From assembly GCA_026874595.1 (NCBI GenBank), contig CM049320.1:38936714-39000713 (forward strand): DNA of 64,000 nucleotides, given 5' to 3'. Origin of the DNA: Sipunculus nudus (Eukaryota; Annelida; Sipuncula; Golfingiida; Sipunculidae). This document shows, one piece after another, positions 36,643 through 62,533 of this stretch. The notes below the pieces were generated by a model. It saw only the letters and a list, made by a program, of their open reading frames with translations, was not told where the DNA came from and made no database searches. The translations under genes were made by a program, and so were the position numbers. Numbering within the stretch: position 1 is the stretch's first letter; the number at the start of each line of letters is the position of its first letter.

Positions 36643-36687
36643 GTAACAAAGTCTTAGGCTACAAATAAAAAGTAAAATCTAGTTAAA

Positions 36688-38397
36688 CTAGAATACGGGT
36701 AGTCGACAAGCGACTACTTGTATCCGCCTAAATCAGAGTGGAACGGGTGAAGTGTTGCATATCAGCATGGATGTCTGCAGCCAAATTGTGTATGTAGCTT
36801 GCGCTACCTACCAAAAAATCCAGAAAGCCGTCCAAGTTGTATACATATGCAAAATTTAAGGCAGATAAGTCAAACCACTATATTGTATATGAGTGATTTT
36901 TGCCCTTGGCAGACAAACAGATGGACGCTGTGCAAAAAAGGGTTGCAGGTGGCGCAACCAGTTAAGCGTATGATAAAGAGCTTTGTGAGAACTATACACA
37001 TGCAAAATTTTGGCCCAATTGGTCAAACAGTTCCCTAGATATGAGCTTGGATGTCTGCAGCGTAAACTTGATTGTAGGTGGCGCCACCTGTCACAAAATC
37101 AGAAAAGCTATCCAGGATGTATAAGCATGCAGAATTTCAGGTGAATTAGTCAAACCACTGCAGAGATATGAGTGATTTTAACCCAAGGCAGACGAACAGC
37201 TGGACACTGTGCAAACATGGTTGCAGGTGGCGCCACCATTTTTTGTGTATGTTATAAAGCTCTCCAAGGGCTACATTTGTGCAAAAAAATTTTCCTGATC
37301 AATCAAACGGTTCCTGAGATATGAGCTTGGATGTCTGCAGCGTAAACATGAATGTAGGTGGCGCCACCTGTCATAAAATCAGAAAAGCTATCCAGGATGT
37401 ATACGCATGCCAAATTTCAGGTGAATTAGTCAAGTCACTGCAGAGATATGAGTGATTTTAACCCAAGGCAGACAAACAGATGGACACTGTACAAACATGG
37501 TTGCAGGTAGCGGCACCATTTTTGGTGTATGTTATAAAGCTCTCCAAGGGCTACATTTGTGCAAAAGAATTTTCCTGATCGGTCAAACGGTTCCCGAGAT
37601 ATGAGCTTGGATGTCTGCAGCGTAAACGTGAATGTAGGTGGCGCCACCTGTCATAAAATCAGATAAGCTATCCAGGATGTATACGCATGCCAAATTTCAG
37701 GTGAATTAGTCAAGTCACTGCAGAGATATGAGTGATTTTAACCCAAGGCAGACGAACAGATGGACACTGTGCAAACATGGTTGCAGGTGGCGCCACCATT
37801 TTTGGTGTATGTTATAAAGCTCTCCAAGGGCTACATTTGTGCAAAAGAATTTTCCTGATCGGTCAAACGGTTCCCGAGATATGAGCTTGGATGTCTGCAG
37901 CATCAACGTGAATGTAGGTGGCGCCACCTGTCATAAAATCAGAAAAGCTATCCAGGATGTTTGCGCATGCCGAATTTCAGGTGAATTAGTCAAGTCACTG
38001 CAGAGATATGAGTGATTTTAACCCAAGGCAGACGAACAGATGGACACTGTGCAAACATGGTTGCAGGTGGCGCCACCATTTTTGGTGTATGTTATAAAGC
38101 TCTCCGAGGGCTACATTTGTGCAAAAAAATTTTCCTGATCGGTCAAACGGTTCCCGAGATATGTGGGTTTATGTGTGGAAACAGACGCACAAACGGACGC
38201 AGAGCGCAGAGGAAAGGTCAGAGGTCAAAACAAAATCGGGGCGCAGCAGTTCACATGTGACCCGAAGATAATCCCGGGTTTCGGAAAATTCCGCCCAGCG
38301 GTTACGGAGGAGTTCTCCGGACACCTACGCGGCGGCGGCGGCGGCGGCGACCAGCTGAAAACATAGTATCCGCAAAACTCTGTTTTGGCGGATACAA
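36688..38397 (-). mobile_element. Helitron/HINE-like type-2 element with about five 280-bp units
   Basis: Read on the minus strand: the 5' end is TTGTATCCGCCAAAACAGAG (from 38397). An inverted copy (ACTCTGATTTAGGCGGATAC, then AA) lies near the 3' end (36718-36739), followed by the perfect 7-bp hairpin GTAGTCG/CGACTAC (36699-36717), a 7-nt spacer and CTAG (36688-36691) before T-rich flank. Inside is a tandem array with a 280-bp period (GATATGAGCTTGGATGTCTG at about 37038, 37318, 37598 and 37878). Each unit is two diverged half-units that both carry GGTGGCGCCACC. A GGC trinucleotide run lies at about 38331-38348. Non-coding; mobilisation would require a Rep/helicase from elsewhere. Confidence 0.7.
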
Positions 38398-40330
38398 TTA
38401 TCACCATGTAAAACATAGATCTGTATTCCATCCAAGCTATGTCACGTTTCTTTTCCATTATTTCAACTTCTACACAAAATTTTACTGTATATACTTTTAA
38501 CATATATTTGTATATTTTACTGTATACAGCTGTATTTTTATATACAATGTAAGTAATTACTTGAATATCAGACACAGCGCAGTGAGGCAGGACACAAACT
38601 GAGTACACTTTGCCGAGTACAACAGAGCGGCTATACAGAGAGCCCTAAGATCATAAGAAGGCCTTTGATCTAATCCTTAATCAATGGATAAAAAGCATAA
38701 TGCATTACAATGAGGGGAAATTACAAAAGACTCAACGAGTGCATTTACCTAGAGAAAAGAGGTGTAAATGATTAGATTAATTCAAAACATGAAAGTATAT
38801 CCCTGGGGTATGGTTGTCATTGAGAATCAGAACAAAATCTTTAAAGTACGCTTTCAACAAAGCAGTTACTGAAGTTAGTTACAGAGCAAGTGGCAAGCTT
38901 TTTATTGTGGTACCAGTGGCCATTGACAATGTTTTAAGTATCATATTTTATTTTTAAAACTAACAATTTGCCTGCAGGTTTACTGTGGTTGCCTTTTTTT
39001 TAGCCAGGGTTTTAATTTTGTGATATTCGAGAATGGGAAATAATCGTGAAAAGGAAACCCTCAGGAATAATTGGCCAATTGGGTATGTCCTTTTTATTCA
39101 ATGAAACCAATACTTGTATGTGAATAGGTTAGAACAGTGAGAAATTTTATAATAAATTCTATTATGCAGGTATAGGGAAAACGTTTTCTTAAATTTGAAC
39201 TAAACTACCTGTGTTGTGTGTATGGGACCATTGTTATATGAGTAGAATATCACAAACGCATGACTTATTCTCATTTTATAATATAAACAGATATGGCTTT
39301 TCCAAAAATTTGATATAGGTTCTGGTGAGATCGCGAAAATGAAACCCTCGTGAAACATTCGAAATGGAGAAATAGCGAAATTTCAGCCTCGCGAATATGC
39401 ATCTACGAGGAATACACGAAGCCAATGTTGTTCATTTCATTCTGAGTGACAGCTCATCGCCCTGGCGACCATTTGAACAGGCCACAGGCTCAGAGAGAAT
39501 TGCCCTACACGTGGTCTCTGGGCGGAGCCTAATGCCTGTCAAGTGTTTGTTGACATGCATTTGGTTGGCTGATAGTCACATCAGCAGTTTTTAAGCAGAC
39601 AGGCCAGTGTGCATCATCTTGTGTATAAATGCATCATAAACGGTCAAAGCAGGCAGCGCGAATATCAGAAGCTTCTCTTGATGCGCAAGATTTCCACTGC
39701 CTCGGGAGCGTAATATGCAATTTCTGGCTTCCCTGCTTGCATATTATTGAACTGTAGGTAATTCCAGTTCAGAAAGGTTCTTATAATAGCTCAGTCCGTG
39801 ACGGATGTACGACCTTGTTATTTACACGCAGGTAGTAAACATGATACATACACCAAAGCTGATAAACAGAAAAACCATGTAACATAAGGTGGCTGGTTAT
39901 ATATGTGAGGAACTTGAAAGGTCACCAGTTGCAAAGGGCCATTGGCAGAATTGTGGTTCGGCTGACTTACTGCACGATCTTTGTTGAATCTGTTTGGTTT
40001 ATTTCAGTTTTTTTCTTAACAGGATCAAATAACCTACATTTCATTACCATGTACTCACAGTAGGACAAAAATCACATATATTCTACAGAAAAGGTAGGTG
40101 ACTGGCTGGCTTTAAGCATATTCGGGAATTATGCAAGGTAAAACATAACTGGTCAAACAAAAGTTAAAACACCATCTGACGGGCTAATTATCTAAGATGG
40201 AATTAATCTCATAGGAGATTGTTGGCAATAAAGGCAACTGACTGGGAATCTAATCTTAAAATTTGCAAGTGGTATTGAGATATATCATGTTTTAGGATTA
40301 AAGGGGCCTAATCACAAATCTGACCTATAT
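38398..40330. other. mostly unique sequence
   Basis: No proven gene. A 127-aa minus frame (38225-38608) partly overlaps the type-2 end and is not recognised. Phrases like 'gcgaaaatgaaaccctcgtg' near 39330 recall a diffuse dispersed repeat. The candidate regulatory patch is listed separately. Confidence 0.4.
39400..39760. promoter_or_regulatory. candidate promoter-like patch
   Basis: Within a less AT-rich, repeat-free stretch are TGACAG (39447), CACGTG (39508-39513), a GC-box-like GGGCGGAGCC (39520-39529) and TATAAAT (39624-39630), roughly in promoter order on the plus strand. These are short motifs and could be chance; no downstream coding exon is recognised. Confidence 0.22.
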
Positions 40331-40737
40331 AAACTAAAGGTAATCCCTTGGGGCTTTTATGAAAATAGGCCAGAAAACGTTCATATTACAACACACAGGC
40401 TGCTTGTTATGTTTATAATAACATGCTTGTAGTACGTGGGGCCCCGCCAAAATAATCAAAACAAATTCAACTAAGGCATATCTTGTGGCAAGTCAGATAA
40501 GCCAGAGCTATGTAAGTGGTGTTTTGCAACAAGTGACCTTCCACCTAAACATATATGCAACCTTCCACCTTAGGTTACTTGTTTTTCCCGTTTGTCAACA
40601 TTGTGGTGTTTACTAACATTTTGTTGATAAACAATTTCATAAATCTTTCACGAAGGCCTTATAAGGACTTTTCACAACCAAAATTACCCTTAGATCAAAA
40701 ACATATACACAGAGGAAGCCAGTAATTACATAAATTC
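40331..40737 (+). repeat. dispersed repeat, copy 1 (pair with 46.7-47.1 kb)
   Basis: Shared phrases with 46718-47118 in the same order: 'aggccagaaaacgttc'/'tggccagaaaacatca', 'gtggggccccgccaaaa'/'gtgggggcccatgaaa', 'cttgtggcaagtcagataag'/'ctggtggcaaatcagaagaa', 'gtgttttgcaac'/'gcattttgcaac', and an end at 'aattct'. Class unknown; no open frame is conserved between the copies. Confidence 0.6.
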
Positions 40738-42261
40738 TTTTTCAAAAGGAAGGTGAATGGGCACCTTTAATTGTAATTTAGCTTACTGAGAGAATTCTCC
40801 ATTTAAGAAGCCTAGTGAAAGCCCTGTATTTTACAGCCAGGTACCATATAAAGTACACTAAGAGTTTATTCATTTCTGGAAGATAAAAATCACACGTTTG
40901 GCTTTATCTTTAAAGAACCTTGCAAATTAAGGACCTTATTGCATGAGATGGTTGATAATTTAGCTCCTCACCCATCAATGAGCAAACAGTGACATAAGAA
41001 GACAAATTTCTTAGTAGGCCTTGAGACCAATGTTTTTAAATTTCATATTTTACATGTTATGAACATTTTTTCCAGATTTTTAAAGACGAACCTGGAACCT
41101 TAATAAAGATATGTAGATTAGACACTGTATTTATTTTCAAACTTTTTATTCAGGCTGATTTCTTAGAGGGCATTCAGCAGCTCATACATCTAATCCTGTA
41201 TACTTCTTTGAACTTCTTAATACAATAAAACCTTGTTGAGTTGGGTTGGCTTCAATGGAACAACCCAACTCACATCAAAGATTCATGCTTGAAGTTTGAG
41301 GTGAAATTATTACTATCTAAAACATGCTCGAGTCGAACCTTGGATACGTTGAAGTTTTAATGCCATCCAGTTCCTTCCACTTTAACACAATGAGGGTTCA
41401 CTGGATTCAAGATGGCCCTGTGCTTACAGCAAGATGTGGTAATCATCAGGAACATATCTAGCACTCTAATGTGACAAAATTGATGAAGGCCAACCCAAAG
41501 AGGAAAGGAAAAAGTTAGAAACAAGTTCCTATGTGACACAATCTCAGTGGCTGAGCTGAAACAGTGACAGAAAAATACAAGTCTATCAGTAATTGGGCCG
41601 TGTTGTGGAAAAGGCAGCAAACAAGCACAAGATTCTGATGGCGAGGTTTAAATGCCAGAGGACATACTCATTGGGACCTCGCTAGGTGAACCTATTTTGT
41701 AAAATCTTCAGGACACTAGCTGAAGGTGGCCCGATTAGAAACAAGACCCCTTGTTCACCTGGCATAAGTCTAGTTACCATTATGATGACGTGTGGTCTTT
41801 ATGATGTCGAGATGACAGCTAGAATTCTTTTAAGCAATGTCAAAGCTTTAACAAAACACTTTCTTATAGTCAGTCTTAAATATTCTGCACCAGGCAATCC
41901 AGACACTAACATTATTGTACCAAGGAGGCTTCTCTGCGGTGTGGTAAAAAGTGTCAGTGGCACACACTCAAAGGCAGTTGATGACAAGAAATCTTAAATA
42001 ATTTTGTACCTCAATCAGTTGGGTGGTTTGTCTTTTGGCAACTTAACATCAACATTTTTAAAAAGATTTTGATGGGTTTTTTTTTGTGGAAGGTTATTGT
42101 AAACCCAGGAAATTTCTATTAAATTTTGCAGAACTTGGATCACAAGTCTGTATTACAGTCCAGGTAAAATTATTCTCTACAGATCTATTTTTTAGACAGA
42201 GCAAATGAGACCATTGTCATTTGCATATATTAAGGTAAACCTAAGCATTGACCTCTGAAAA
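40738..42261. other. no gene proven
   Basis: A 103-aa plus frame (41686-41997) is open but unrecognised and is overlapped by a minus-strand frame. The rest is AT-rich without recognised repeats. Confidence 0.4.
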
Positions 42262-42640
42262 CTAGATGTGTCAGAACAACACAAATGCCCCCGCCTGGAG
42301 CAAATTAGATATATTTGTTAATTTTTGTAAAATTTTATAAGTTCAGGAGGTGTCGTATGGTCAAAAGTTGGTCAACAAGGGCAAAATGCAAACGCAATCT
42401 GTAACGGGTCATTATCAAGCAACACACCAAAAATCAGGCCAGTATCTGCAGGCACTGAGAAAAAAGTCCATACATGTGCATTTTTCAAAATATTTCTGTC
42501 TTTCCTGAAATTTTCTATGTTCAGGTTCTGTCATATGGTCAAAATAGGTCAACTGGGACAAAACGCGAACTTGATCTGTAAGTGATCTTTATGCGGCCAC
42601 AGACCAAACATTTGGCCAGTATCTGTAAGCATTGCAGTGC
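42262..42640 (-). mobile_element. possible Helitron-like fragment with two ~178-bp units
   Basis: On the minus strand the left end is a TGTG/CACA stem (42267-42283) followed by CTAG (42262-42265) and T's; the plus-strand 'aaaactagatgtg' is also the mirror of the 34.25-kb end. Two units share 'gttcagg' (42341 and 42519), 'tatggtcaaaa' and 'ggccagtatctg'. The stem is short, and the other terminus is hidden by the adjoining type-2 element. Confidence 0.4.
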
Positions 42641-42644
42641 AAAA

Positions 42645-43900
42645 CTAGAATATTAGTAAAAGCTGATAATCAGTAATAAATTTAAATTGGAGAGGTATGT
42701 ACCATGTTTCATAACAATCCACCAAATGCTTCCTGAGAAATAAGCTCCTAATTTTTTTCCTATACTAAGCTCTGTGACCTGCAAAATTTCAGATGGATAA
42801 GTCAACCACTGCTGAGATATGAGTGATTTTATCCCAAGGCAGATGAACAGATGGAAGGTGTTCATAAGTGGTTGCAGGTTGCAGTTTTGCTTATGATGAA
42901 GAGCTATGTGAGATCTATACACACGAAAATTTTGACCCAATCGGTCAAACGGTTCCCGAGATATGAGCTTGGATGTATACAGACTAAACGTGAATGTAGG
43001 TGGTGCCACATGTCATAAAATTGAGAAAATTGTCCAAGATGTATAAACCTGCAAAATTTCAGGTGGAAAAGTCAAACCACTGCTGAGATATGAGTGATTT
43101 TATCCCAAGGCAGATGAACAGATATAAGGTGTTTATAAGTGGTTGCAGGTGGCGCCACCAGTTTTGCTTATGATAAAGAGCTATGTGAGATCTATACACA
43201 AGCAAAATTTTGACCCAATCGGTCAAACGGTTCACGAGATATGAGCTTTGATGTCTGCAGAGTAAACTTGAATGTAGGTGGTGCCACCTGTCATAAAATT
43301 GAGAAAATTATCCAGGATGTATAAACCTGCAAAATTTCAGGTGGAAAAGTAAAACCACTGCTGAGATATGAGTTATTTTATCCCAAGGCAGATGAACAGA
43401 TGGGTGCTGTGCATTAATGGTTGCAGGTGGCACCACCAGTTTTGCCTATGATGAAGAGCTATGTGAGATCTATACACATGCAAAATTTTGACCCAATCGG
43501 TCAAACGGTTCCCGAGATGAGCTTGGATGTCTGCAGAGTAAACGGAATGTAGGTGGCGCCACCTGTCATAAAATCTAGAAAGCTGTCCAGGATGTATAAA
43601 CCTGCAAAATTTCAGGTGAATAAGTCAAACCACTGCTGAGATATCAGTGTTATTATCCCAAGGCAGATGAACAGATGGACGCTGTGCAAAAATGGTTGCA
43701 GGTGGCACCACCATTTTTAGTGTATGTTATAAAGCTATCAAAGGGCTACATTTGTGCAAAATTTTTAGCCTGATCGGTCAAACGGTTCCCGAGATATGCG
43801 GGTTTATGTGTGGAAACAGACGCTGGGCAGCGAAGAAAGGTCAGAGGTCAACCAAAAATGAGGGCGCAGCAGTTCACATGTGACCTGATGATAAACCCAA
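42645..43900 (-). mobile_element. type-2 element, second copy (diverged, 5' end lost)
   Basis: The 3' terminus on the minus strand has CTGAT/ATCAG (42663-42673) and CTAG (42645-42648) before T's. The interior has three to four 280-bp-class units with 'ggttcccgagatatgagc', 'cccaaggcagatgaacagat' and GGTGGCGCCACC or its variants (42996, 43146, 43277, 43426, 43551, 43702). The inner 5' region ('gcgcagcagttcacatgtga') is present to about 43890, but the terminal TTGTATCCGCC is missing. Less similar between units than the 36.7-kb copy, so probably older. Confidence 0.6.
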
Positions 43901-43979
43901 TTCGCTTAAAATGCAAACCAAGTTTTTTCAAACAGTTGAAAGATAAAGTTCCAAAAATCTCGGAATTCTGCATCTAAAC

Positions 43980-44067
43980 ATTGTGTCTAGACGTCTAGAC
44001 GCTGTGTCTAGACGTCTAGACGCTGTGTCTAGACTCATTGTCTAGCCACCCCCCCCCCCCCCCCCCC
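43980..44067. repeat. 21-bp tandem repeat plus C run
   Basis: 'tgtgtctagacgtctagacgc' occurs about two and a half times; it contains the overlapping palindromes TCTAGA and AGACGTCT. It is followed by about 18 C at 44049-44067. Confidence 0.85.
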
Positions 44068-44329
44068 GAGCCAGGTCAGTTGCCATGGTGATGTCTGGAG
44101 CCCACCTGTTTGTACTTGGCTGCTAAAAGTCAGCATGTTGTCAAATCTGTTTTCAAATACAGAAAGCCTTTTTCAATCGGCTACAATGTTTTTTTAAACT
44201 GTATTTACCCAATCTATTCTTATAAAACTGGCAGAACCCTACCATAGAATAATTCTTGTAAAGTGTAAACCAATCAGCTTAACAGTTTCATCATAAATCA
44301 GTGTATAAGCTAGAAGAGTTTAAAATTAC

Positions 44330-44854
44330 ATTTTCGCTTGTAAAAAGCATATTAATGTAGGTGGCGCCACCAATACCTCAAGATCAGATATGACAAATGT
44401 GACAAACATTGGTATAAAATTTGGTGATTATAGCTCTAGCTGTGTCTTTTATTTATATGAAAGTGTGCTTTTTTGGACAGATGACTAAGTTCAACCTCCT
44501 GTTACTCGGCCAAAAATGTCTGAGTTGGAACCATTCGAACAAACTTGAGAGAGATTGTTCCAGGGATCATTTCTGTGAAATATTGGACAATTTGGCTGGA
44601 CAGTTTCAGAGAAGAAGATTTTTAAAGGTTTTTAAGCTTTTTCTCTATAAAATCTAAATTAATGCAGATACCCAATAATAAGCTCCAGGGCACCAAGTTT
44701 CACGTGACTAATTCTTACATGTAATTTGGAGCTGCTAGCTCCAACGGTTTCTGACTTACAGCCATGGACGGTGGAAAGCCAGCCCTAGACGGCAGACGGC
44801 TGATGATGGACGGACGACGCTACGCCATCGCATAAGCTCACAGGTTCGCTAAAA
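44330..44854 (-). mobile_element. type-3 element fragment (5' end)
   Basis: On the minus strand it starts TTTTAGCGAACCTGTGAGC (from 44854), then a GACGG/GGACG-rich tract. On the plus strand it carries 'aggtggcgccaccaatacct', 'aagttcaacctcctgttact', 'cggccaaaaatg' and 'gaacaaacttgagagaga'. The same order is found at 50.98-51.3, 52.13-52.62 and 54.05-54.35 kb. The matching 3' end was not found to the left. Confidence 0.6.
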
Positions 44855-47118: not shown

Positions 47119-47122
47119 CTAC

Positions 47123-49054
47123 AACAAGGCCTACAGGCCTAATGCAAACCTGTGATGGATTACATCAAGAAAAATGCTTCCATGCACGACCAATACTTGC
47201 AAGTGACCTATGTGTGACATGAGGGATATGTACAATGCAAGTACTAAATATTTTGAACCCTAGTATAAGTACCAATTACACAAACATCATTTCTGAAATA
47301 CTGGCATGGATGTAAACAACAGAAAATGATAGTAGGTGGCGCCACCAGTCTTGGGTACGAGAAATAATCGAAGAAGTATGGACATGCAAAATTTCAGGCA
47401 GATACCTCAAACCACTTTTGAGCTATGTGCACAGCTGCATGAAACCCAAAAAACAATTGTAGGTGGCACCACAAGCCTTATATAAAACAAAACTATCCGA
47501 GATGAATGGACATGCATAATTTCAGGCTGATAGGTCAAAATACTCCTGAGAAATAAGCACGGACATACACTGTACAAAAATTACTGTAAGTGGCACCACC
47601 AGTCTTTTATATGACATAGCAATCTGCTATGCATGGATATGCACAATTTTAGGCTGATATATCAAATCTTTCCTGAGAAATAAGCAAGGACATACACTTT
47701 GCAAAAATCATTGTAGGTGGCGACACCTGTTTTGTTTACTAGAAAGCAATCAAAGATGTAAGGACAGGCTGAAATTTCTGGCCAATACAACAAACTTCTC
47801 TTGAGTAAGGTGCAATGGGCAGACCCAGATCAGCTGAGGCAGGCAATTGCCCAAAGACAAGCAAAGCTAATTGCTAGCTGCAGCTACTGCACTGAGTGAA
47901 CTCTTGACCTGTACCTGGCTGCACTGAATGAACTCTTGACCTGTTGCATAATCTTACACAGTTGGTAGTCTGCCAAGGCTATAAATAGATCCACACTGAC
48001 CTTTGGCTTGTTGCCAAATCTGAATTAGTTGGCAGTCTGGCAATCTATTTATAGATACAGACAGAATCTTTGCCTGTTGGTAGATCCGTTTACACATACT
48101 GAAAGACTTTGGCTACAATACTTTATTTCAAGCTGACATATTCATAAGATTTTCTTATCGAAATGTTTAGAATAATAAAAGATGGAGTCCTTTCATTGTT
48201 AAAGGTCAAATAATTCTGCCAAAAATCATTTCAGTAAACTTGAACCAAGGCCACCTAAGATTAAGATTTTGGGCAATGTTACAGAAGTTGAAACTACAGT
48301 TTTACAGAAGAAGACTATTGCAGCCCTCAGTTTGAAATAGGCTTACTAAGACCAACTTCAGCTATCTATGACTCTACCATAAATCAATGAACACAATATA
48401 TTCTTATACACTTGAAAGAACCCTACCCTAGAACAATTCTGGAGAAAAATTAAATGATTCAGCTTGACAGTTTCATCATAAAACATTTTCAAGTTGAAAG
48501 AGGCTAAAATCATGAGGTTTTTACCTATAAAAAACAGGTCTATGTAGGTGGCGTCACAAAAACTGCAATTTCCCAGTAAATTGTAAGTTTATACAAATGG
48601 CACCACAAAAAGCTAAATTCCCACAACATTTGATATGTAACAGAGTTTTGCATAAAATTTAGGGATGCTAGTTCCTGCCATTAATGAGGAATAATGGTTT
48701 AATGTACTGATGACCTATGACCCTGGTACAAAAAAGGTTGATGCATGTGGCACCATCAATACCTCAATTTCACATACGAGTCATGTGACCAACATCTGCA
48801 TAATATTTGATGATGATAGTGATATTATATTGATAAATATTCCTTCTGAGTTTGATCCTCGTAGGTAAATGGGTGACACCATAAAGTTGCCTTGTGACCT
48901 CTGACCTCATTAAATATGTGGGGATTTTGCCTATAATCAAACTCAGATAATCTATTAGACCCTGAAGATGCATCTGCTATAATAATAAGAAATAGATCCC
49001 AGTAAAACTTTTTGAGAAATAGCGTCACAAATGATCCGAATTAAAAAATTCATT
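47123..49054 (-). mobile_element. type-3 HINE-like element, outer copy (interrupted)
   Basis: The left end is 'aacaaggcctacaggcctaa' then 'tgcaaacctgtg': on the minus strand an inverted copy of the 5' end (CACAGGTTYGC), a AGGCCT/AGGCCT quasi-palindrome, and CTTGTT. The first part is an array of 126-128-bp monomers with GGTGGCGCCACC-type palindromes at 47333, 47460, 47588 and 47714. Then comes a block of 'actgagtgaactcttgacct' repeats (47885-48010) and AT-rich filler with more palindrome variants (48545, 48745). Its own 5' end is not obvious here; it may be the one at 52620 or 54347. Confidence 0.5.
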
Positions 49055-52000
49055 AACAAGGCCTACAGGCCTAATGCGAACCTGTGCATTGGGAAATACA
49101 CCAGGTATAATGCTTTAATGCTGGACCATTACTTTTCATGTATATGAACCATGCAAGTACTAAACATTTTGAATAAGAAACAATTACACAAACATCACAG
49201 CTGAAATTCTGGCATGGGTGAACACAACACTAAAAAGATTGTAGCTGGCACCACCAGTCTTGTATACAACGAAGCTATCAGAGATATATACATATGCCCA
49301 ATTTCAGACTGATATATCAAACCCCTCCTGAGAAAAACGCAGGGACACACACTGTGCAAAAGTCATTGTAGGTGGCGACACCTGTCTTGTGAGCAAGAAA
49401 GCCATCAAAGACACATAGACATGTCAAAATATTAGGCCAATACATCAAACTTACCTTGAGTCTGATGCATGGAGCTGACCAGGCTTAGGTGAGAAAGGCT
49501 GTTGCCCTGAATGAACTGTGACAAATTGCTTGCTCAGGCTATTGCACTGAGTGTACTCATGACCTGCACCTGGCTAGACTTAGTGAACTTGTGACCTGTA
49601 CCTGGCTGCACTGAGTGAACTCTTCACCTGTTGCATAATCTGACACAGTTGGCAGTCTGCCAAAGCTATACATAGAATGCAGCTACTGCACTGAGTAAAC
49701 TCCTGACCCATACCTGGCTGCACTGATTAAACTCCAGACCTGTTACCTAATCTGATACAGTTGGCAGTCTGCCAAAGCTATAAATAGATCCAGACTGACC
49801 TCTAGCCTGTTGCCAAATCTGAAATAGTAGCTGGCACCATTGCATAAGCTCATGCAGGGGCCCTGCCCTGAGGGGCTTGACACCCATGAAGTGATCATAT
49901 GGTGCCAATGAGGTGTTCACATGTCACCCATGAGGTGATCACATGCCTTGTGCTTGGCTGCACTGATTGAACTCATGACCTATATCTGGCTGCACTGAAT
50001 GAACTCTTGATCTGTTGCCAAATCTGAAACAGTTGGCAGTTTCTCAACCTATTTAAAGATACAGATTCAATCTTGGCCTGTTGGTATATCTGTTAACACA
50101 TACTGAAAGACTTTGGCTAAAATGTTTTTCTTTTCAAGATGACATATTCATAAACTTTTTATCAAAATATCTAGAATAATAAAAGATGCAGTACTTTCAT
50201 TGTTAAAGGTCCAATAGTTCTGCCAAAAAATCATCCAACTTGAACAAAGGCCACCTAGGAATAATTTTTGTGCAATGTTACAGAAGATATAATTGAAACA
50301 ATAATTTAGTAAAAAAAAACACTATTGCAGTCCTCTGTTTGAAAAAGACATAATAATGGCCATAAGACCAACTTAAGCTTTTCACAACTCGACCAAAAAT
50401 CAACAAACTAAGTATATTCTGATATGATTATAAGAACCATGTCCTAGGATAATTCTTTTGAAAAATTGAACAATTCAACTTGACAGTTTCATCATTAAGC
50501 TGAAAGAGGCTAAAATTATGAGTCTTTTTGCCCATACAAAACAGGTCAATGTAGGTGGCACCACAAAATCTGCAACTTCAAATATGAGTCATGTGACCAA
50601 CATTTGCACAATACCTGGTAATGCTAGCTTCTGTCATTTCTGAGAGTACTATGTCAGTATGCTTACTTGGCCAAATGACTGTTCAAATTTGTGTAACTCC
50701 ACTAAAATTCATCAAATGCAAACCATTTGAACAAACTTGAGAGGGCTTGCCTCTGGGATCATTTATGTAAAATATTGAACAATTTTGCTGGACCGTTTAC
50801 AAGAAGAAGACTTTTAAAATCTATAAAATCTAAGTAAATGCAGATAGCAAAAAAATAAGCTGAATCCCACAACATGTGATATGTGACAGATTATTGCATA
50901 AAAACTAGGGATGGTAGCTCCTGCTATTCCTGAGAAATTATGGGTCAATGTACAGATGACCAATGACCCACATACAAAAAAAAGGTCAATGCAGGTGGCG
51001 CCACCAATACCTGAATTTCATATATGACTCATGTGACCAACACTGGCATAAAATTTGGTGATGATAGCTCCAGCCATTACTGAGATTGTAATTTTAGTAT
51101 GCTTTTTGGGACAGTTAGCGGAGTTTTACTTCCTGTAACTCGGCCAAAATTCACCGAACTTGAACCATTAGAACAAACTTGAGAGAGATGGTATAAAAGA
51201 TTATTTCTGTGAGATATTGAACAAATTGGATTGACAGTTTCGGAGAAGATTTTTAAAGTTTTTTAGCTTTTTCTCTATAAAATCTGAAAAAAATGCAGAT
51301 TTTTTCAGATGGCTAATTTTTTGCATTAAATTTCATGATGCAAGCTCCAGTCGTTTTAGAAATAGTATGGGTGAACATATACCTGTGATTGTAAACATTG
51401 CCTGGCATGAGGAATATCTAAAATCATAAATCTTTATTTTTAAAAAGTTTTTTTAAAAAACATTCTTTCAATATTAACCACAGATAACCTGAAATCTAAA
51501 TGTCTGGAGGCATGATGTAACGGATGCTGATAAACTGGTTCCAGGCTAGATGTATCTGCTTCACACAGCTAACATATATGGAAAAATGACCCAATTCGAT
51601 CTTTATAATTCAGCCAAAATTCATTCTTTGGAACCATACAAGACAATTATTATAAGAATTATTCAGGGGATTTTTCTTTTAAATTATTAAACAAATTAGC
51701 CTCAGTGGCGTCAGTCAAAAAACGTTTTGCAGGTTTATAACTAATTTGGGAAAATAAAGCAAAAACGCTAAGTTAAGCTTTCCATAACTCAGCCAAAAAT
51801 CACTGAACCAAAACCATTTGAACAAACTTGAATTATCAACATCTAAGGATAATTAATGTGTGAGATTTAAGAATTTGGCCCAGTGGTTTTTGAGAAGATC
51901 TTTGTAGCCACTGAGCTAAAATGGGCTGTTATGGCATATGACTAAATTCAGCTTCCCATAACTCAGCCAAAAGTTACTGAACTGAGACCATTTGAACAAA

Positions 52001-52620
52001 CTTCAGAAAGTACTACCCTAGGATCATTTCTGTGCTATATTAAACAATTTGGCCATATGGTTTCAGAGAGGAAGTTTTTTGTTGCAGTCAGTATGATACG
52101 GGCACTGATGACCCCCGTACAAAAAAGGCCAATGCAGGTGGCGCCACCAATACCTCAATTTCAGATATGACTCATGTGACCAACATTGGCATAAAATTTG
52201 GTGATGATAGCTCCAGCCATTTCTGAAATTGTAATTTTAGTATGCTTTTTTGGACAGATGATTAAGTTCAACTTCCTGTAACTTGGCCAAAAATCACCGA
52301 ACTTAAACCATTCGAACAAATTTGAGAGAGATTGTTCCAGGAATCATTTATGTGAAATATTGGCCAATTTGGCTGAACAGTTCCGGAGAAGAAGATCTTT
52401 AAAGCTTTTTTAGCTTTTTCCCTATAAAATCTAAGAAAATGCAATTAGCCAAAAAATAAGCAAAATCAGATAGAGTTTTTTAGATGACTAATTTTTTGCA
52501 TAAAATTCTGTGATGCTAACTCTTGCCCTTTTCAAGATAGTATAGGTTAACGTACAGACAACGGACGACAGACGCCGGACGACGCCACACCATCGCATAA
52601 GCTCACAGGTTCGCTAAAAA
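49055..52620 (-). mobile_element. type-3 HINE-like element, inner copy
   Basis: Left terminus 'aacaaggcctacaggcctaa' + 'tgcgaacctgtg' (49055-49086) and right terminus 'cgcataagctcacaggttcg' + 'ctaaaaa' (to 52620) give inverted subterminal GCGAACCTGTG, a hairpin-like AGGCCT pair, and CTTGTT on the minus strand. The interior holds palindrome monomers (49245, 49372, 50552, 50994, 52136), 'gcactgagtgaactc' repeats (49545-50030), a short 'cccatgaggtgatcacatg' repeat (49886-49945), and at least three versions of the 'ctcggccaaaa...gaacaaacttgagagag' unit. No coding capacity. It could contain further nested elements. Confidence 0.5.
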
Positions 52621-53255: not shown

Positions 53256-54347
53256 TGATTTTAGCTGGCACCACCAGTCTTGTATACAACAAAGCTATCA
53301 GAGATATATACATATCCCAAGTTCAGACTGATATATCAAACCCCTCCTGAGAAGCAGGGACACGCACTGTGCAAAAATTATTGTAGGTGGCACCACCAGT
53401 CTTGTATATGACAAAGCTATTCGATAGGTATAAATATGCCCAATTTCAGGATGATATATCAAATTCCTCTATAGAAATAAGCAGGCACATACACTGTGCA
53501 AAAGTCATTGTAGGTGGCGACACCTGTCTTATGAATGAGAAAGCCATCAAAGACACATAGACAGGTCATAATATCAGGCCAATACATCAAACTTACCTTG
53601 AGTCTGATGCATTGGGCTGACCAGGCTTAGGTGAGAAAGGCAGTTGCCCCGAGTGAACTGTGACAAATTTGCTGGCTCAGGCTAATTCACTGAGTGAACT
53701 CATGACCTGCACCTGGCTAGACTGGGTGAACTTTTGACCTGTACCTGGCTGCACTGAGTGAACTCTTGACCTGTTGCTTAATCTGATACAGTTGGCAGTC
53801 TGCCAAAGCTTTAAATAGATTGGCTCCACATGCAGCCCTGAGGGGCATGACACCCATGAGGTGATCAAATGATGCCCATGAGGTGTTCACATGTCACCCA
53901 TGAGAGGATCACATGCCTTGTGCTTGGCTGCACTGACTGAACTCTTGACCTATATCTGGCTGCACTGAATGAACTCTTGATCTATTGCCAAATCTGAAAC
54001 AGTTGGCAGTTTCTCAACCTATTTATATATACAGACACAAGGCCACCTAAGAATACTTAGTTCCAGGGATCATTTCTGTAAAACATTGGACAATTTGGCT
54101 TAACAGTTTTGGAGAAGATGATTTTTAAAGCTTTTTTAGCTTTTTCCCTATAAAATCTAAAAAAAATTCATTTAGCCAAAAAATAAGCAAAATCCGATAG
54201 AGTTTTTTAGATGTCTAATTTTTTGCATCAAATTTCGTGATGCTAACTCTTGCCGTTTTCAAGATAGTATAGGTTAACATACAGATGACGGACAACAGAC
54301 AACGGACGACGCCACACCATCACATAAGCTCACAGGTTCGCTAAAAA
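53256..54347 (-). mobile_element. type-3 element, third segment
   Basis: 'agctggcaccaccagtcttg' at about 53262 repeats the text at 49243 nearly word for word. It is followed by 126-bp monomers (53385, 53512), the 'gcactgagtgaactcttgac' block, the 'cccatgaggtg' repeat (53850-53915) and the type-3 5' end 'cacaggttcgctaaaaa' at 54347. Compared with 49.2-52.6 kb a large middle part is missing. Confidence 0.55.
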
Positions 54348-54496: not shown

Positions 54497-55525
54497 AACA
54501 AGTGACCCAGGGGTCATGACGCTCAGCTGACCAGGAAGACATTGACAAAAGTAATTTTATCATCTGAATGTCAAATTTGAATGAAATACTTTTTCCAAAC
54601 TTTTGTATAAAATCATCCAATATTCATTGGGGTACTATGAAGCTCTGTAGCATGAAGGATATGGGTAACAGACACCTATTTTCAAGGTTTACAAGATGAC
54701 TTTTCAGGGGTCTCCCAGCATGTCAAAAAATAAAATTCTAGGTCCAGTTATTATGATTTGTGCCCTGTTAACAAATCCAAAAGTTTATTCTGGGGGGTAT
54801 TTCAAAGCCGCATAGGATGAAGGATATGGGTAACAGAGATGTAATTTCAGGTGCACAAGGAGACTTTTCAGGGGCCTCCCAGCATATCAAGAAAGGAGAG
54901 TCTAGGTCAAGTCATTATAATTTGTGCTCTGTTAACAGATGACCAAATCTTTATTCTGGGGAGTACTTCGGAGCCCCAGAGCATGAAGGATATGGGTAAC
55001 AGGGACCTTATTTCGGGTTTCCATGTAGGCCTTTTATGGGCTTCCCTGGAGGTGAAGACAGAAGATTCTAGGTCCAGTCATTATGATTTGTGCCCTGTTT
55101 ACAGATGACCAAATGTTTAAAGACAACAAAAGTAGAGAAAAAAAATCGTAAAAAATAAAAAAAATTAAGGTGGCGCCACCAATCTCCAGAAATTGATGAA
55201 ACACTCCATGATCAATATCCATGCAAAGAATCATGGTGATTAATGCATTAGTTGTTCAGATACTTGAGCTTTTGTATTAAATTTTGCATTATTCTGGGGG
55301 GTACTTCAGAACCCCATAGCTCAAAGAATATAGGTCACAGTGACCTAATTTCAGGTTTACAAGGAGAATTTCCATGGACCTCCCAGGATTTAAAGTAAGA
55401 AGATTCCCAGTCTAGCGGTTAAGATTTGTGCCCTGTTAACAGACAGACGCCTGGATGGCCAGACGGACAACGGACAAAAGGTGATCCCTACAGCTCAGAT
55501 GACTTTCAGTCAGCTGAGCTAAAAA
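54497..55525 (-). mobile_element. type-1 HINE-like element, copy C
   Basis: The left end is 'aacaagtgacccaggggtca' + 'tgacgctcagctgac', and the right end 'agctcagatgactttcagtc' + 'agctgagctaaaaa' (55525). On the minus strand: 5' AGCTCAGCTGACTGAAAG, interior units, inverted copy GTCAGCTGAGC, TGACC/GGTCA-type hairpin, CTTGTT. Interior units carry 'tctaggtccagttattatga', 'ggggggtatttcaaagccgc' and one GGTGGCGCCACC (55170). Units here are shorter because the palindrome-bearing part is missing in the first copies. Confidence 0.65.
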
Positions 55526-57082
55526 TTGAAAAAATACAGGTGGCGCCACCAGAATGCAGAAACTGATGAAACATTTCATGATCAATATCCATGCAAAGAA
55601 TCATGGTGATCAATATAATAATTGTTCAGATACTTGAGCTTTTGTATCAAATTTTCCATTATTCTGGGGGGTACTTCAGAGCCCCATAGCTCAGAGGTTA
55701 TGGGTAACAGAGACCTAATTTCAAGTTTTTAAGGAGACTTTTCATGGGCCTCTCAGCATGTCAAGAGAGAAGATTCTGGGTCCAGTTGTTACAATTTGTG
55801 CCATGTTAACAGATGACGGCATCTTATGAGGTCTCAAAAATAGAGAAAAAAATTCGTAAAAATAAAAAAAATACAGGTGGCGTCACCATACTGCAGAAAC
55901 TGATGATAAATTCCATGATCAATATCCATGCAAAGAATCATGGTGATCACTGCAATAGTTGTTTAGATACTTGAGCTTTTGTATCAAATTGTCCATTATT
56001 CTGAGGGATACTTCAGATGAATTACAGTCAGCTGAGCTAAAAACACTTAATGGTCCATATCCATGCAAAGAATCATGATGATCTCCGTATTAGTTGTTCA
56101 GATACTTCAGCTTTTATATCAAATTGTCCATTATTCTGAGGGATACTTCAGAGTCCTATATAGCTTGAAGGATATGGGTAACAGAGACCTAATTTCAAGT
56201 TTCAACAGGCACTCTTCATGGGCCTCCTTGCATGACAAGAATGAAGTTTCTAGGTCCAGTTGTTGCAATTTGTACCCTCTTGATAGATAACCACTTCTTC
56301 AAAGGTCTCGAAAAAAGAGAAAAAAAATTTGTAAAAATTTGAAAAAAATAGAGGTGGCGCACCCTCTCTGCAGAAACTGATGGAACAGCTCATGATCAAT
56401 ATGTATGCCAAAAATCATGACCATCAGTGTTGTAGTTATTGAGATACTGCACTTTTTGTATCAAATTTTCCATTATTCTGGGGGGTATTTTGGAGCCATA
56501 CAGCATAAAGAATATGGGTAACAGAGACCTAATTTCAGGTTTCCATGGAGAATTTTCATGGGTCTCACTGTGTGTCAAGAATGAAGATTCTAGGTCCAGT
56601 CGTTACTATTTGTGCCATGCTAACAGATGACAGCATCCTTAAAGGTCTCAAAAATAGAGGAAAAAATCGTAAAAAATCGATCAATAAAGGTGGCACCACC
56701 AGTCTGCAGGAAGTGATGACACATCTCATGATCAATAGTTATGCCACAAATCATGACCATCAGTCAAGTAGTTAATGAGATATTGAAGTTTTTGTATGAA
56801 ATTTTTGACTTTTCTGGGGGGTACTTTGGGGCTCCATAGCTCAAAGAATATGGGTAACAGAGACCTAATTTCTGGTTTCCATGGAGACTTTTCATAGGTC
56901 TCTCAGTGTGTCAAGAATGAAGATTCTAGGTTCAGTCTTTACGATTTGTGCCTTGTTAACAGATGTTTACATTTTGAAAGGTCTCAAAAATAGAGAAAAA
57001 AATTCGTAAAAAATTGAACGATACAGATGGCGCCACCAGTCTGCAAGAAGTGATGGAACATCTCATGATCAATATGTATGAC
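55526..57082 (-). repeat. 336-bp tandem array, left part (host of copy E)
   Basis: Units with palindrome or variants at 55540, 55876, 56352, 56690 and 57027. A remnant 5' end ('attacagtcagctgagctaa' + AAA, 56020-56042) interrupts the array. Unit landmarks in order: palindrome, 'ctcatgatcaatatg', 'gagatactg', 'ctggggggtact', 'ggatatgggtaacagagacc', 'tctaggtccagtcgttac', 'aaaggtctcaaaaatagag'. The array resumes at 61565 after copy E. Confidence 0.75.
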
Positions 57083-57267
57083 AACAAGTGACCCATGGGT
57101 CATGACGCTCAGCTGACTGGGAAGAGATTCGCTAAAGGAAATTTTATCATGAGAATGGTAGTATATACCCATTCAACTGAAGCATCAAACAGATTAACCA
57201 ACAGGCCAAGATTTAGTCTGTATTTATATATCTCAAAAATAGAGAAAAAATGTGTAAACTTTAAAAA

Positions 57268-58171
57268 CTAGAATACAGGTAGCCGATAAGTGACTACTTG
57301 TATCCGCCAAAATTAGGGTGGAACGGTTGAAGTGAGGCATGGATTTGAGTGGCAAGGGGAAATAGAGTAAGGTATGTTGCATATTAGCATGGATGTCTGC
57401 AGCCTAAATGTGTATGTAGGTTGTGCCACCTACCACAAATCCAGAAAGCTGTCCAAGTTGTATACATATGCAAAATTTTAGGCAGAAAAGTCAAACCACT
57501 ACATGTATATGAGTGATTTTAGCCGACGGCAGACAAACAGACAGACGCTGTGCAAAAATGGTTGCAGGTGGCCCCTCTAGTTTTGTGTATGATAAAGACC
57601 TATGTGAGATCTATACACATGCAAAATTTTGGCCCAATCGTTCAAACGGTTCCCGAGATATGAGCTCGGATGTCTGAAGCATAAACTAGAATGTAGGTGG
57701 CGCCACCTGTCATAAAATCAAGAAAGCTAACCAGGATGTATAAAACTGCAAAATTTTAGGCAGATATGTCAAACCACTGCCGAGATATGAGTGATTTTAA
57801 CCCAAGGCAGATGAACAGATGGACACTGTGCAAACATGGTTACAGGTGGCGCCACCATTTTTGTGTATGTTATAAAGCAATCAAAGGGCTACATTTGTAT
57901 AAATTTTACTTCCTGATTGGTCAAACGGTTCCCAAGATATGAGGGTTTATGTGTGGATCAGACGCACAAATGGATGCTGGATAGAGGGGAAAGGTCAGAG
58001 GTCAACACAAATTGGTTAGGCACTAGTTCACATGTGACTAGATAATTAGTGTAAGTTTCGGAAAAATCGGTCCATTTTTCTCAGTGGAGCTCTCTGGAAA
58101 CAAACGTTGCGGGGGCGGAGGAACCCGGTCAAAAACATAGTATCTGCAAAACTTCGTTTTGGAGGATACAA
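57268..58171 (-). mobile_element. type-2 element, short copy with about two units
   Basis: CTAG at 57268-57271, an imperfect GTAGCCG/TGACTAC hairpin, TTGTATCCGCCAAAATTAGG (57298-57317), and the inverted end GGAGGATACAA (58161-58171). The internal array has only four half-units (57416, 57566, 57693, 57846), against about ten in the 36.7-kb copy. It sits inside a type-1 unit: array text stops at 'aaaaatgtgtaaactttaaa' and resumes at 'aaatacaggtggctccacca'. Confidence 0.7.
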
Positions 58172-59159
58172 AAAATACAGGTGGCTCCACCAGTCTGCAG
58201 AAACTAATAAAAACACTTAATGGTCAATATCCATGCAAAGAATCATGGTGATCTCCGCATTAGTTGTTCAGATACTTCAGCTTTTATATCAAATTGTCCA
58301 TTATTCTGAGGCTTCTATAGCTTGAAGGATATGGGTAACAGAGACCTAATTTCAAGTTTCCACAGGCACTCTTCATGGGCCTCCTTGCATGACAAGAATG
58401 AAGTTTCTAGGTCCAGTTGTTGCAATTTGTACCCTGTTGACAAATAACCACATCTTTAAAGGTCTCAAAAAATGAGAAAAAAAATTAGTAAAAATTTGAA
58501 AAAAATAGAGGTGGCACACCCAGTCTGCAGACACTGATGGAACAGCTCATGATCCATATGTATGCCGAAAATCATGACCATCAGTGTTTGGTTATTGAGA
58601 TATTGAAGATTTTGTATGAAATTTTTTACTACTCTGGGGGGTGCTTTGGGGCCCCATAGCTCAAAGGATATGGGTAACAGAGACCTAATTTCTGGTTTCC
58701 ATGGAGACTTTTCATAGGTCTCTCAGTGTTTTGAGAATGAAGATTCTAGGTCCAGTCGTTACGATTTGTGCCATGCTAACAGATGACAGCATCCTTAAAG
58801 GTCTCAAAAATAGAGGAAAAAATCGTGAAAAAATCAAACAATAAAGGTGGTGCCACCAATCTGCAGGAACTGATGATACATCTCATGATCAATATGTATG
58901 CCGAAAATCATGACCATCAGTGATGTAGTCATTGAGATAATGAAGTTTTTGTATGAAATTTTTGACTACTCTGGGGGGGTACTTTGGGGCCCCATAGCTC
59001 AAAGGATATGGGTAACAGAGACCTTATTTCTGGTTTCCAAGTAGATTTTTCACGGACCTCTCAGTGTGTCAAGAATTAAGATTCTAGGTCCAGTCTTTAC
59101 GATTTGTGCCTTGTTAACAGATGTTCACATTTTGAAAGGTCTCAAAAATAGAGAAAAAA

Positions 59160-60505
59160 ATTCATAAAAAATCCAACGATACAGGTGACGCCACCAGTCT
59201 GCATGAAGTGTTGACAAATCTCATGATCAATAGTTATGCCACAAATCATGACCATCAGTCAAGTAGTTAATGAGATATTGAAGTTTTTGTATGAAATTTT
59301 TTACTTTTCTTGGGGGTACTTTGGGGCCCCATAGCTCAAAGAATATGGGTAACAGAGACCTAATTTCTGGTTTCCAAGGAGACTTTCCATAGGTCTCTCA
59401 GTGTATCGAGAATGAAGATTCTAGGTCCAGTTGTTACGATTTGTGCCACGCAAACAGATGACAGCATCCTTAAAGGTCTCAAAAATAGAGGAAAAAATCG
59501 TGAAAAATCAAACAATACAGGTGGCGCCACCAGTCTGCAGGAACTGATGGAACATCTCATAATCAATATATATGCCAAAAATCATGACCATCAATGATGT
59601 AGTTATTGAGATATTGAAGTTTTTGTATGAAATTTTTTACTTTTCTTGGGGGTACTTTGGGGCCCCATAGCTCAAAGAATATGGGTAACAGAGACCTAAT
59701 TTCTGGTTTCCAAGGAGACTTTTCATAGGTCTCTCAGTGTATCGAGAATGAAGATTCTAGGTCCAGTTGTTACGATTTGTGCCTTGTTAACAGATGTTCA
59801 CATTTTGAAAGGTCTCAAAAATAGAGAAAAAAATTCATAAAAAATCCAACGATACAGGTGACGCCACCAGTCTGCATGAAGTGTTGACAAATCTCATGAT
59901 CAATAGTTATGCCACAAATCATGACCATCAGTCAAGTAGTTAATGAGATATTGAAGTTTTTGTATGAAATTTTTTACTTTTCTTGGGGGTACTTTGGGGC
60001 CCCATAGCTCAAAGAATATGGGTAACAGAGACCTAATTTCTGGTTTCCAAGGAGACTTTCCATAGGTCTCTCAGTGTATCGAGAATGAAGATTCTAGGTC
60101 CAGTTGTTACGATTTGTGCCACGCAAACAGATGACAGCATCCTTAAAGGTCTCAAAAATAGAGGAAAAAATCGTGAAATATCAAACAATACAGGTGGCGC
60201 CACCAGTCTGCAGGAACTGATGGAACATCTCATAATCAATATATATGCCAAAAATCATGACCATCAATGATGTAGTTATTGAGATATTGAAGTTTTTGTA
60301 TGAAATTTTTTACTTTTCTTGGGGGTACTTTGGGGCCCCATAGCTCAAAGAATATGGGTAACAGAGACCTAATTTCTGGTTTCCAAGGAGACTTTCCATA
60401 GGTCTCTCAGTGTGTCGAGAATGAAGATTCTAGGTCCAGTTGTTACGATTTGTGCCACGCAAACAGATGACAGCATCCTTAAAGGTCTCAAAAATAGAGG
60501 AAAAA
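59160..60505. repeat. 673-bp higher-order duplication in the 336-bp array
   Basis: Two adjacent units (59160-59832) recur as 59833-60505 nearly without change, including the private variant 'gtgacgccaccagtctgcat' + 'gaagtgttgacaaatc'. A third copy of the second unit follows at about 60505. Neighbouring units outside are more diverged. Confidence 0.88.
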
Positions 60506-61564
60506 ATCGTGAAAAATCGAACAATACAGGTGGCGCCACCAGTCTGCAGGAACTGATGGAACATCTCATAATCAATATATATGCCAAAAATCATGACCAT
60601 CAGTGATGTAGTTATTGAGATATTGAAGTTTTTGTAGGAAATTTTTTACTACTCTGGGGGGTACTTTGGGGCCCCATAGCTCGAAGGATATGGTTAACAG
60701 AGACCTAATTTCTGGTTTCCAAGGATATTTTTCATGGACCTCTCAGTGTGTCAAGAATTAAGATTCTAGGTCCAGTCTTTACGATTTGTGCCTTGTTAAC
60801 AGATGTTCACATCTTGAAAGGTCTCAAATATAGAAAAAAAAATTCGTAAAAAATTGAACGATACAGGTGGCGCCACCAGTCTGCAGGAAGTGATGGAACA
60901 TCTCATGACCAATATGTATGCCAAAAATCATGACAATCAGTCAAGTATTTAATGAGATATTGAATTTTTTGCATGAAATTTTTTACTTTTCTGGGGGGTA
61001 CTTTGGGGCCCCATAGCTGGAAGGATATGGGTAACAGAGACCTAATTTCTGGTTTCCCTGGAGACTTTTCATAGGTCTCTCAGTGTTTCGAGAATGAAGA
61101 TTCTAGGTCTAGTTGTTACGATTTGTGCCTTGTTAACAGATGTTCACATTTTTAAAGGAATCAAAAATAGAGAAAAAAATTCGTAAAAAATCGAAAAAAA
61201 CAGGTGGCGCCACCAGTCCTCAGGAACTGATGAAATATCTCATGATCAATATGTATGCCAAAAATCATGACCATCAGTCAAGTAGTTAATGAGATATTGA
61301 AGTTTTTGTATGAAATTTTTTACTTTTCTGGGGGGTACTTTGGGGCCCCATAGCTCGAAGGATATGGGTAACAGAGACCTAATTTCTGGTTTCCAAGGAG
61401 ATTTTTCATTGACCTCTCAGAATGTAAAGTTACAAGATTCTAAGTCCAGCGGTTACGATTTGTGCCAGGTTAACGGACAGACGGACAGACGGACGGACAG
61501 ACGGACGACGGACAAAGAGTGATTGCTATAGCTCAGCATGACTGAAAGTCAGCTGAGCTAAAAA

Positions 61565-62533
61565 TCATGACCATCAGTCAAGTATTTAATGAGATATTGA
61601 AGTTTTTGTATGAAATTTTTTACTTTTCTGGGGGGTAGTTTGGGGCCCCATAGCTGGAAGGATATGGGTAACAGAGACCTAATTTCTGGTTTCCATGGAG
61701 ACTTTTCATAGGTCTCTCAGTGTGTCGAGAATGAAGATTCTAAGTCCAGTCATTACGATTTGTGCCTTGTTAACAGATGTTCACATTTTTAAAGGTCTCA
61801 AAAATACAGAAAAAAATTCGTAAAAAATAAAAAAATACAGGTGGCACCACCATTCTTCAGAAACTGTTGGAACCTCTCATGATCAATATGTATGCCAAAA
61901 ATCATGACCATCAGTCAAGTAGTTAATGAGATATTGAAGTTTTTGTATGAAATTTTTTACTTTTCTGGGGGGTAGTTTGGGGCCCCATAGCACAAAGGAT
62001 ATGGGTAACAGAGACCTAATTTCTGGTTTCCATGGAGACTTTTCATAAGTCTCTCAGTGTGTCGAGAATGAAGATTCTAAGTCCAGTCATTACGATTTGT
62101 GCCTTGTTAACAGATGTTCACATTTTTAAAGGTCTCAAAAATAGAGAAAAAAATTTGTAAAAAATCAAAAAATACAGGTGGCGCCACCATTCTTCAGAAA
62201 CTGTTGGAACCTCTCATGATCAATATGTATGCCAAAAATCATGACCATCAGTCAAGTAGTTAATGAGATATTGAAGTTTTTGTATGAAATTTTTGACTTT
62301 TCTGGGGGGTACTTTGGGGCCCCATAGCTCGAAGGATATGGGTAACAGAGACCTAATTTCTGGTTTCCAAGGAGATTTTTCATGGACCTCCCAGGATGTC
62401 AAGTAAGAAGATTCCAGTTCTAGCGGTTACGATTTGTGCCCTGTTAACGGACAGACGCCCGGACGGCTGGACGGACGACGGACAAAAGGTGATCCCTATA
62501 GCTCAGATGACTTTCAGTCAGCTGAGCTAAAAA
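61565..62533 (-). repeat. 336-bp array, right part, ending in a type-1 5' terminus
   Basis: Resumes mid-unit after copy E, has units at 61841 and 62176, then the GGACGGCTGGACGG-type tract and 'agctcagatgactttcagtc' + 'agctgagctaaaaaaa' at 62500-62533. Together with 55526-57082 it is probably a single older type-1 element. Confidence 0.7.

Follow-up and report, generated by a model that had tools for sequence, protein, structure and literature searches.

The question raised by a stretch of the Sipunculus nudus genome (64,000 nucleotides of contig CM049320.1, positions 38,936,714 to 39,000,713 of the forward strand, called the window here) is why tandem arrays with units of quite different length carry the same 12-bp palindrome, GGTGGCGCCACC. 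The explanation favoured here, with somewhat better than even confidence, is that the arrays are the central repeats of non-autonomous Helentron-like elements (HINEs) in which one site has been kept, and that it is the copies whose site is intact that multiply, through a protein presumed to read it.

In the window, 50 matches to GGTGGCGCCACC with at most two mismatches were found (23 exact, 16 with one mismatch and 11 with two), all of them between 36948 and 62188, while 0.39 were expected and 100 shuffles gave at most 3. The original prediction, made for this stretch from its letters, that the palindrome or its variants occur dozens of times across three array types was thus borne out. The palindromes lie in 280-bp dimers at 36759-38163, 42777-43798 and 57.4-57.9 kb (type 2, with monomers T2a and T2b), in 127-bp monomers at 47.3, 49.2 and 53.3 kb (type 3, T3) and in 336-bp units at 55.2-62.4 kb (type 1, T1). 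A fourth context, which had not been listed in that prediction, consists of single copies at 44360, 48547, 48746, 50554, 50994 and 52137 (type 4, T4). The features concerned are as follows.

36686..38397, minus strand: candidate type 2 HINE (280-bp dimers) with both ends, which recur at other genome loci
36759..38163, plus strand: 280-bp dimer array of T2a and T2b monomers, with nine palindromes at two mismatches or fewer (seven exact) and one with three mismatches at 36797
37357..37368, no strand assigned: representative exact palindrome
42777..43798, plus strand: second type 2 dimer array, 278-bp period
47335..47842, plus strand: type 3 array of 127-bp monomers, four palindrome positions, outer limit approximate
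49055..52620, minus strand: candidate HINE containing both 127-bp (type 3) monomers and single sites of type 4, whose two ends presumably pair as one element
52137..52148, plus strand: exact palindrome in type 4 context
53264..53640, plus strand: type 3 array of 127-bp monomers, three palindrome positions, outer limit approximate
54497..55525, minus strand: shorter candidate type 1 HINE with both ends
57083..62533, minus strand: candidate type 1 HINE stretch (336-bp units) from left end to right end, inside which lie a nested type 2 element and a further right end (61547-61564); the outer ends probably belong to one element
57266..58171, minus strand: candidate type 2 HINE with both ends, nested in the A-run of a type 1 unit
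58317..62448, plus strand: array of type 1 336-bp units, 12.4 copies

The palindrome was also counted in the whole genome (1,426,538,692 bases in 153 contigs). It occurred exactly 111,729 times, or once per 12.8 kb, whereas the same word reversed, which is also a palindrome of the same composition, had 14 exact copies. A sample of 20 stretches, each 10 kb long and located at a pair of fixed coordinates per contig on C1 to C10, contained 31 exact palindromes, 22 with one mismatch and 12 with two; the exact ones fell in 5 of the 20 stretches, and a few of those with two mismatches resembled chance matches. When the 20,000 commonest 12-mers of these stretches were filtered for complexity and ranked by the number of stretches containing them, the palindrome shifted by one base, AGGTGGCGCCAC, reached the maximum of 6 of 20, tied with three other 12-mers. 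By raw count the palindrome ranked 95th, behind local tandem arrays. At 10.74-10.81 Mb of contig C1, the same palindrome variants were closely repeated, which suggests a large segmental duplication. The extended palindrome was also present in 60 viral contig stretches; given a rough guess of the size of that collection, this was put down to chance. Scans of the window against Rfam at gathering thresholds and for tRNAs with the bacterial code gave no matches.

The carriers of the arrays look like HINEs on the minus strand, in three families with different termini. Copies in the window aligned with copies at other loci up to sharp ends. Read in the minus sense, types 1, 2 and 3/4 each have a 5' subterminal inverted repeat (subTIR), an inverse 3' subTIR and a 3' terminal palindrome, and the end sequences of the three sets are different words. 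Type 2 has the 5' subTIR TTGTATCCGCC followed by an inverted repeat and the 3' subTIR GGCGGATACAA with a stem-loop; type 1 has TTTTTAGCTCAGCTGAC at the 5' end, an ACGG-type microsatellite, and GTCAGCTGAGC with the palindrome TGACCCATGGGTCA at the 3' end; the type 3/4 element has the subTIRs CACAGGTTCGC and GCGAACCTGTG and the 3'-end palindrome AGGCCTACAGGCCT. At both ends, GCTCAGCTGAC, TTGTATCCGCC and GCGAACCTGTG each have an inverted partner. With RNA parameters, the inverted repeat adjoining the 5' subTIR forms stems of -17.5 kcal/mol in type 1 and -13.9 kcal/mol in type 2, and a weak one of -5.6 in type 3/4, and the 3'-end palindromes or stem-loops (TGACCCATGGGTCA, GTAGTCGcttgtCGACTAC and AGGCCTacAGGCCT) fold at -6.1, -14.7 and -8.4. 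Near the 5' module, the ACGG array at 61473-61513 stands beside the type 1 end at 61564, and short GGC and GAC runs were seen by eye in the other types.

Insertion into oligo-T/A without target duplication fits a single case: in the printed sequences, compared by eye, the type 1 unit is uninterrupted at another locus (L084, reverse complement) where the window holds the type 2 insert 57266..58171. The Rep protein of Helitrons is encoded in this genome, with 143 matches to Helitron_like_N, some of them in open frames of more than 2,200 amino acids; none of 14 control genomes had a match. At position 8583 of locus L069 and at 58171 in the window, a type 2 right end is followed by the same type 1 unit and the left flanks differ, which might mean that a composite was copied or trimmed.

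The relationship between the monomers was studied in two ways. With profiles built on the 100 bp that follow the palindrome, which was itself excluded, T2a, T2b and T3 found one another (best E 1e-3 to 7e-11), 8-10 of 9 or 10 units being matched. T1 was marginal (best E 0.04): the T2a profile matched 4 of its 19 units (best E 0.3) and the T3 profile none of 19. T4 gave no match in either direction. Alignments anchored at the palindrome were scored against 500 dinucleotide shuffles for 21 pairs, and z was 13.9 for T2a-T3, 12.4 for T2b-T3 and 6.3 for T2a-T2b. T1 reached 4.2 with T2b, 2.4 with T2a and 1.4 with T3, and T4 reached 4.1 with T2a, 3.1 with T3, 1.7 with T1 and 1.6 with T2b; 13 of the 21 pairs stood at z 2.4 or lower. 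Outside these five main groups, two further contexts were noted, T5 and T6 (L069:3697 and L070:1999), of which T6 aligned with T2b (z 5.3) and T3 (4.6). By eye, the five main groups have a motif, loosely tgcAAAATTT..GAgAtat, about 36-40 bases past the palindrome. The 336-bp unit (e.g., at 58317-62448) contains, also by eye, two more AAATTT..agctc..GGATATG-like motifs without the palindrome, and may be a degenerated trimer.

A tree was drawn from 66 of the 134 gathered units, with no outgroup. In it, T2a, T2b and T3 intermixed, T1 occupied a separate long branch and 9 of the 10 T4 rows were likewise apart. Because of this separation, the single clade that had been expected for monomers of all three types cannot be claimed. 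The similarity after the palindrome that the original prediction saw across families is pronounced between the 280-bp and 127-bp monomers, which are clearly homologous even with the palindrome removed, and weak for the 336-bp family. Its proposal that a single monomer lineage lies within elements of differing termini is firm for types 2 and 3, while the 336-bp family and the type 4 context appear only weakly related to them.

To compare the palindrome with its flanks, units of the window and of a few other loci were gathered by flank and not by palindrome (E<=1e-4). Matches of T2a, T2b, T3, T1 and T4 numbered 53, 53, 24, 31 and 16, of which 37, 40, 21, 26 and 10, or 134 units, were kept; dropped units did not reach the monomer start, were cut by a locus end or were identical in sequence, the latter including both overlapping loci and truly identical units. 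Divergence from the consensus in the ten non-CpG palindrome columns was 76 of 1,326 cells (5.7%) versus 2,872 of 18,096 (15.9%) in the flanks; among non-CpG flank columns of G or C it was 1,161 of 6,194. At CpG it was 48 of 264 in the palindrome versus 216 of 690 in the flanks. The palindrome was less divergent in all five monomer groups (p 0.0001-0.033 versus random column sets). The number of other 12-column windows equally conserved was 14 of 116 for T2a, 0 of 116 for T2b, 0 of 116 for T3, 9 of 115 for T1 and 3 of 116 for T4. Thus, the earlier suggestion that a self-complementary site is kept in drifting units held in each group, more weakly when judged by windows.

The changes were divided into shared and private ones. 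Variants present in at least two units occupied 49 of 1,326 palindrome cells (3.7%) versus 2,434 of 18,096 flank cells (13.5%), a 3.6-fold deficit present in each of the five groups. Private changes were about equally common in the palindrome (27 of 1,326, 2.0%) and the flanks (438 of 18,096, 2.4%; Fisher p 0.46), also when only G/C flank columns were taken (173 of 6,194; p 0.13). Since shared variants are depleted and private ones are not, the constraint would act on which copies multiply and not on settled copies. The plain reading, from a small sample, is that lineages seldom descend from copies whose site is altered and that settled copies decay freely. Host constraint on settled copies was considered and found unsupported, private changes being about as common as in the flanks. 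Such free decay would also be expected if the palindrome had no function, a few recent master copies having carried the word by chance and its frequency reflecting amplification alone. This seems improbable, as the shared variants are rarer in the palindrome in five of five groups, including two that hardly align with the rest beyond the palindrome.

Over the five groups, the extended consensus is TRYA-GGTGGCGCCACC-WRT. Genome-wide, almost all of the 111,729 exact sites have A at position -1 on at least one strand: it was present on neither strand in 1,182 of them and on both in 41,719. Among 131 of the 134 units, those with at most four palindrome mismatches, the two halves changed to a similar extent, with 34 changes in one and 39 in the other, and 46 in the central CpG. 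None of the 33 units with two or more changes had a compensatory double change, and only one had changes at mirror positions. The perfect self-complementarity of the palindrome might indicate a DNA structure, a cruciform or hairpin, that serves as a signal for recombination, array growth or rolling-circle replication, and 12- and 10-bp palindromes are described at the junctions of the phBglII400 satellite in the available text of PMC5139131. However, the same letters, and not mere symmetry, were retained across groups that barely align elsewhere. In single-strand folding of four units, the site folded no better than in shuffles (z -1.30 to 0.44), and the palindrome hairpin lay outside the minimum-energy fold in two of the four. 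A structural signal is accordingly very unlikely, and the recombination or replication hairpin of the original prediction found no support; its alternative, a protein-binding site, stands as the interpretation suggested by the retained letters. The lack of compensatory change in 33 units therefore argues for a nearly symmetric protein site and not a hairpin. E2F, with the core TGGCGCCA, was considered as the reader and dropped: the AT-rich flanks of the E2F motif are absent from the site.

The abundance of the word compared with its reversal, the A before nearly every site, the HINE-like anatomy with three different sets of ends, the site shared between them, the monomer homology outside the palindrome, the low divergence of the palindrome, the deficit of shared but not private variants and the absence of compensatory changes together led us to favour a site kept for copying. 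According to this explanation, the arrays would be central tandem repeats of several HINE families, and their monomers would be of common descent, which is firm where the 280-bp and 127-bp types are concerned. Each of these units would keep one sequence-specific, almost two-fold symmetric site, which would be read most simply by a dimeric or symmetric DNA-binding protein. Copies with the intact site would be copied by transposition or array growth, binding presumably aiding propagation, and after insertion the site would decay like its surroundings.

Several observations weigh against this explanation. At five Helitron-Rep loci, stretches of 3-4 kb contained neither these subTIRs (with at most one mismatch) nor the palindrome, and no autonomous Helentron partner with matching ends was found in them. 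The T5 context had no homology beyond the palindrome (anchored z -0.0 to 1.5). Compared by windows, the T2a and T1 palindromes were only modestly more conserved than the flanks. Many of the 134 units come from the same arrays, so the counts are not independent; moreover, tandem duplication can produce shared variants, and singletons of the sample may be shared genome-wide. The symmetry is also imperfect: A at position -1 is nearly fixed and +13 is A or T. The asymmetric sites of the genome, with A on one strand, included 68,828 intact ones by subtraction. In asymmetric sites, position 2 was changed from G to A 4,653 times versus 1,836 changes from C to T at mirror position 11 (2.5-fold), and the last C was changed 5,755 times versus 2,597 for the first G (2.2-fold). 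Among the first 100 listed changes at each of these two positions, counted by hand, 52 at the first G were G>A, and at the last C 66 were C>A and 30 C>T. Both halves are thus strongly kept; positions 2 and 12 show some asymmetry, which could stem from subfamilies.

If the site is kept for copying, several HINE families with independent ends might depend on one host DNA-binding factor for their spread, with more than 100,000 genome sites usable in chromatin architecture as a by-product, which would place the word among the most widely scattered protein-binding words of this genome; this extension of the favoured explanation is tentative and less likely than not. A particular reader was also considered. 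The site could be the core of the CTCF motif, AGGTGGCG, spread by the elements, so that host CTCF would bind; the elements would thereby gain favourable chromatin, and about 100,000 potential architectural sites would have been added to the genome. AGRKGGC is the CTCF core and tolerates G>A at position 2. Of the 111,729 exact sites, 110,547 contain AGGTGGCG on at least one strand. The literature was queried for AGGTGGCGC or AGGTGGC together with CTCF; the fly consensus is given as AGGTGGCG (PMC5462476), TAGGTGGCGC occurs in a guide sequence directed at a CTCF site of human (PMC6344568), and a passage in PMC7883824 had no bearing on the question. A CTCF ortholog is encoded at C11:67037578-67038510 (56% over about 308 amino acids, 373.7 bits, next best 198.4), and its fingers 3, 4 and 5 have all four recognition residues identical to the human ones.

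The excess of G>A at position 2 over its mirror had been predicted from this hypothesis before the genome count, though the 131-unit sample had hinted at it (9 versus 4). However, the paired prediction, that position 4 would be tighter than its mirror, failed (1,847 G>A versus 1,426 C>T at position 9, in the same asymmetric sites). Of the directional constraint expected for a CTCF site, with a mirror half freer than the core half, positions 2 and 11 fit the expectation and 4 and 9 do not, and the end positions, 1 versus 12, lean to it. Conservation of the right half, outside the CTCF core, is almost as high, TRY stands where the upstream CCA module would be expected, and fingers 6 (one of four residues the same) and 7 (two of four) partly differ from human. 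A match of 8 letters is also weak given the many known motifs. CTCF stays a minority reading because one of the two asymmetry predictions failed, and we consider it unlikely to be the reader. Among the listed matches to CTCF fingers, contig C16 had very many long open frames with C2H2 zinc fingers, with further clusters on C7, C9 and C11.

The favoured explanation can be set beside known systems, each compared as far as the accessible text of the source describes it. The plan of the Cg_HINE elements of Crassostrea gigas, with subTIRs, a 5' inverted repeat, a GTCC-like microsatellite, a 3' palindrome and central satellite-like arrays of similar monomer size, is like that found here (PMC7492417). 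In 11 Cg_HINE elements, a monomer cluster is tied consistently to one flank pair; related flanks may hold unrelated repeats, and unrelated flanks hold unrelated repeats (PMC7492417). In contrast, three flank sets here carry related monomers and one shared site. The pearl, DTC84, MgE and BIV160/Cg170 repeats form short arrays of about 160-bp units in HINE-like elements; BIV160 and Cg170 have two conserved motifs in common, and a palindrome close to the repeat junction is conserved in DTC84 (PMC5139131, PMC7492417). The monomers here are of 127-149 bp or 336 bp. Caenorhabditis Helitrons carry clustered HSF-1 sites, more than 10,000 in five classes, with factor and binding demonstrated (PMC6927752), whereas both are presumed for the present site. 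The ISX Helitron of Drosophila miranda likewise spread a binding motif for a chromatin complex (PMC6598467), but it is one family under host selection, while here there are several families and settled copies without sign of constraint.

Both HINEs with satellite-like arrays (PMC7492417, PMC5139131, PMC11136912) and Helitrons spreading factor sites (PMC6927752, PMC6598467) are therefore already known, as far as these sources were available. A literature search with the palindrome letters returned only an unrelated chitinase paper and no report of the palindrome. Nor was any report found of a single site retained by HINE families that differ in their ends, supplements and figures lying outside the search. 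Added here to the original prediction are the HINE anatomy of the carriers, the more than 110,000 recurrences in the genome and the conservation among shared and not private variants. To our knowledge, the reason why HINEs carry satellite-like arrays is unexplained. A site constrained during copying, free after insertion and common to families whose ends differ would give the arrays a testable job, to recruit one factor repeatedly. If that factor is architectural, the genome would have gained more than 100,000 sites for it through transposition.

The window also contains other repeats. A 53-bp unit was seen by eye in two copies each at 21484-21587 and 35999-36106, in opposite orientation and about 14.5 kb apart. 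Long tandem arrays lie at 11633-12050 (17-bp units), 26166-28078 (20-bp) and 29999-31395 (33-bp), the last having open frames of about 500 codons on both strands.

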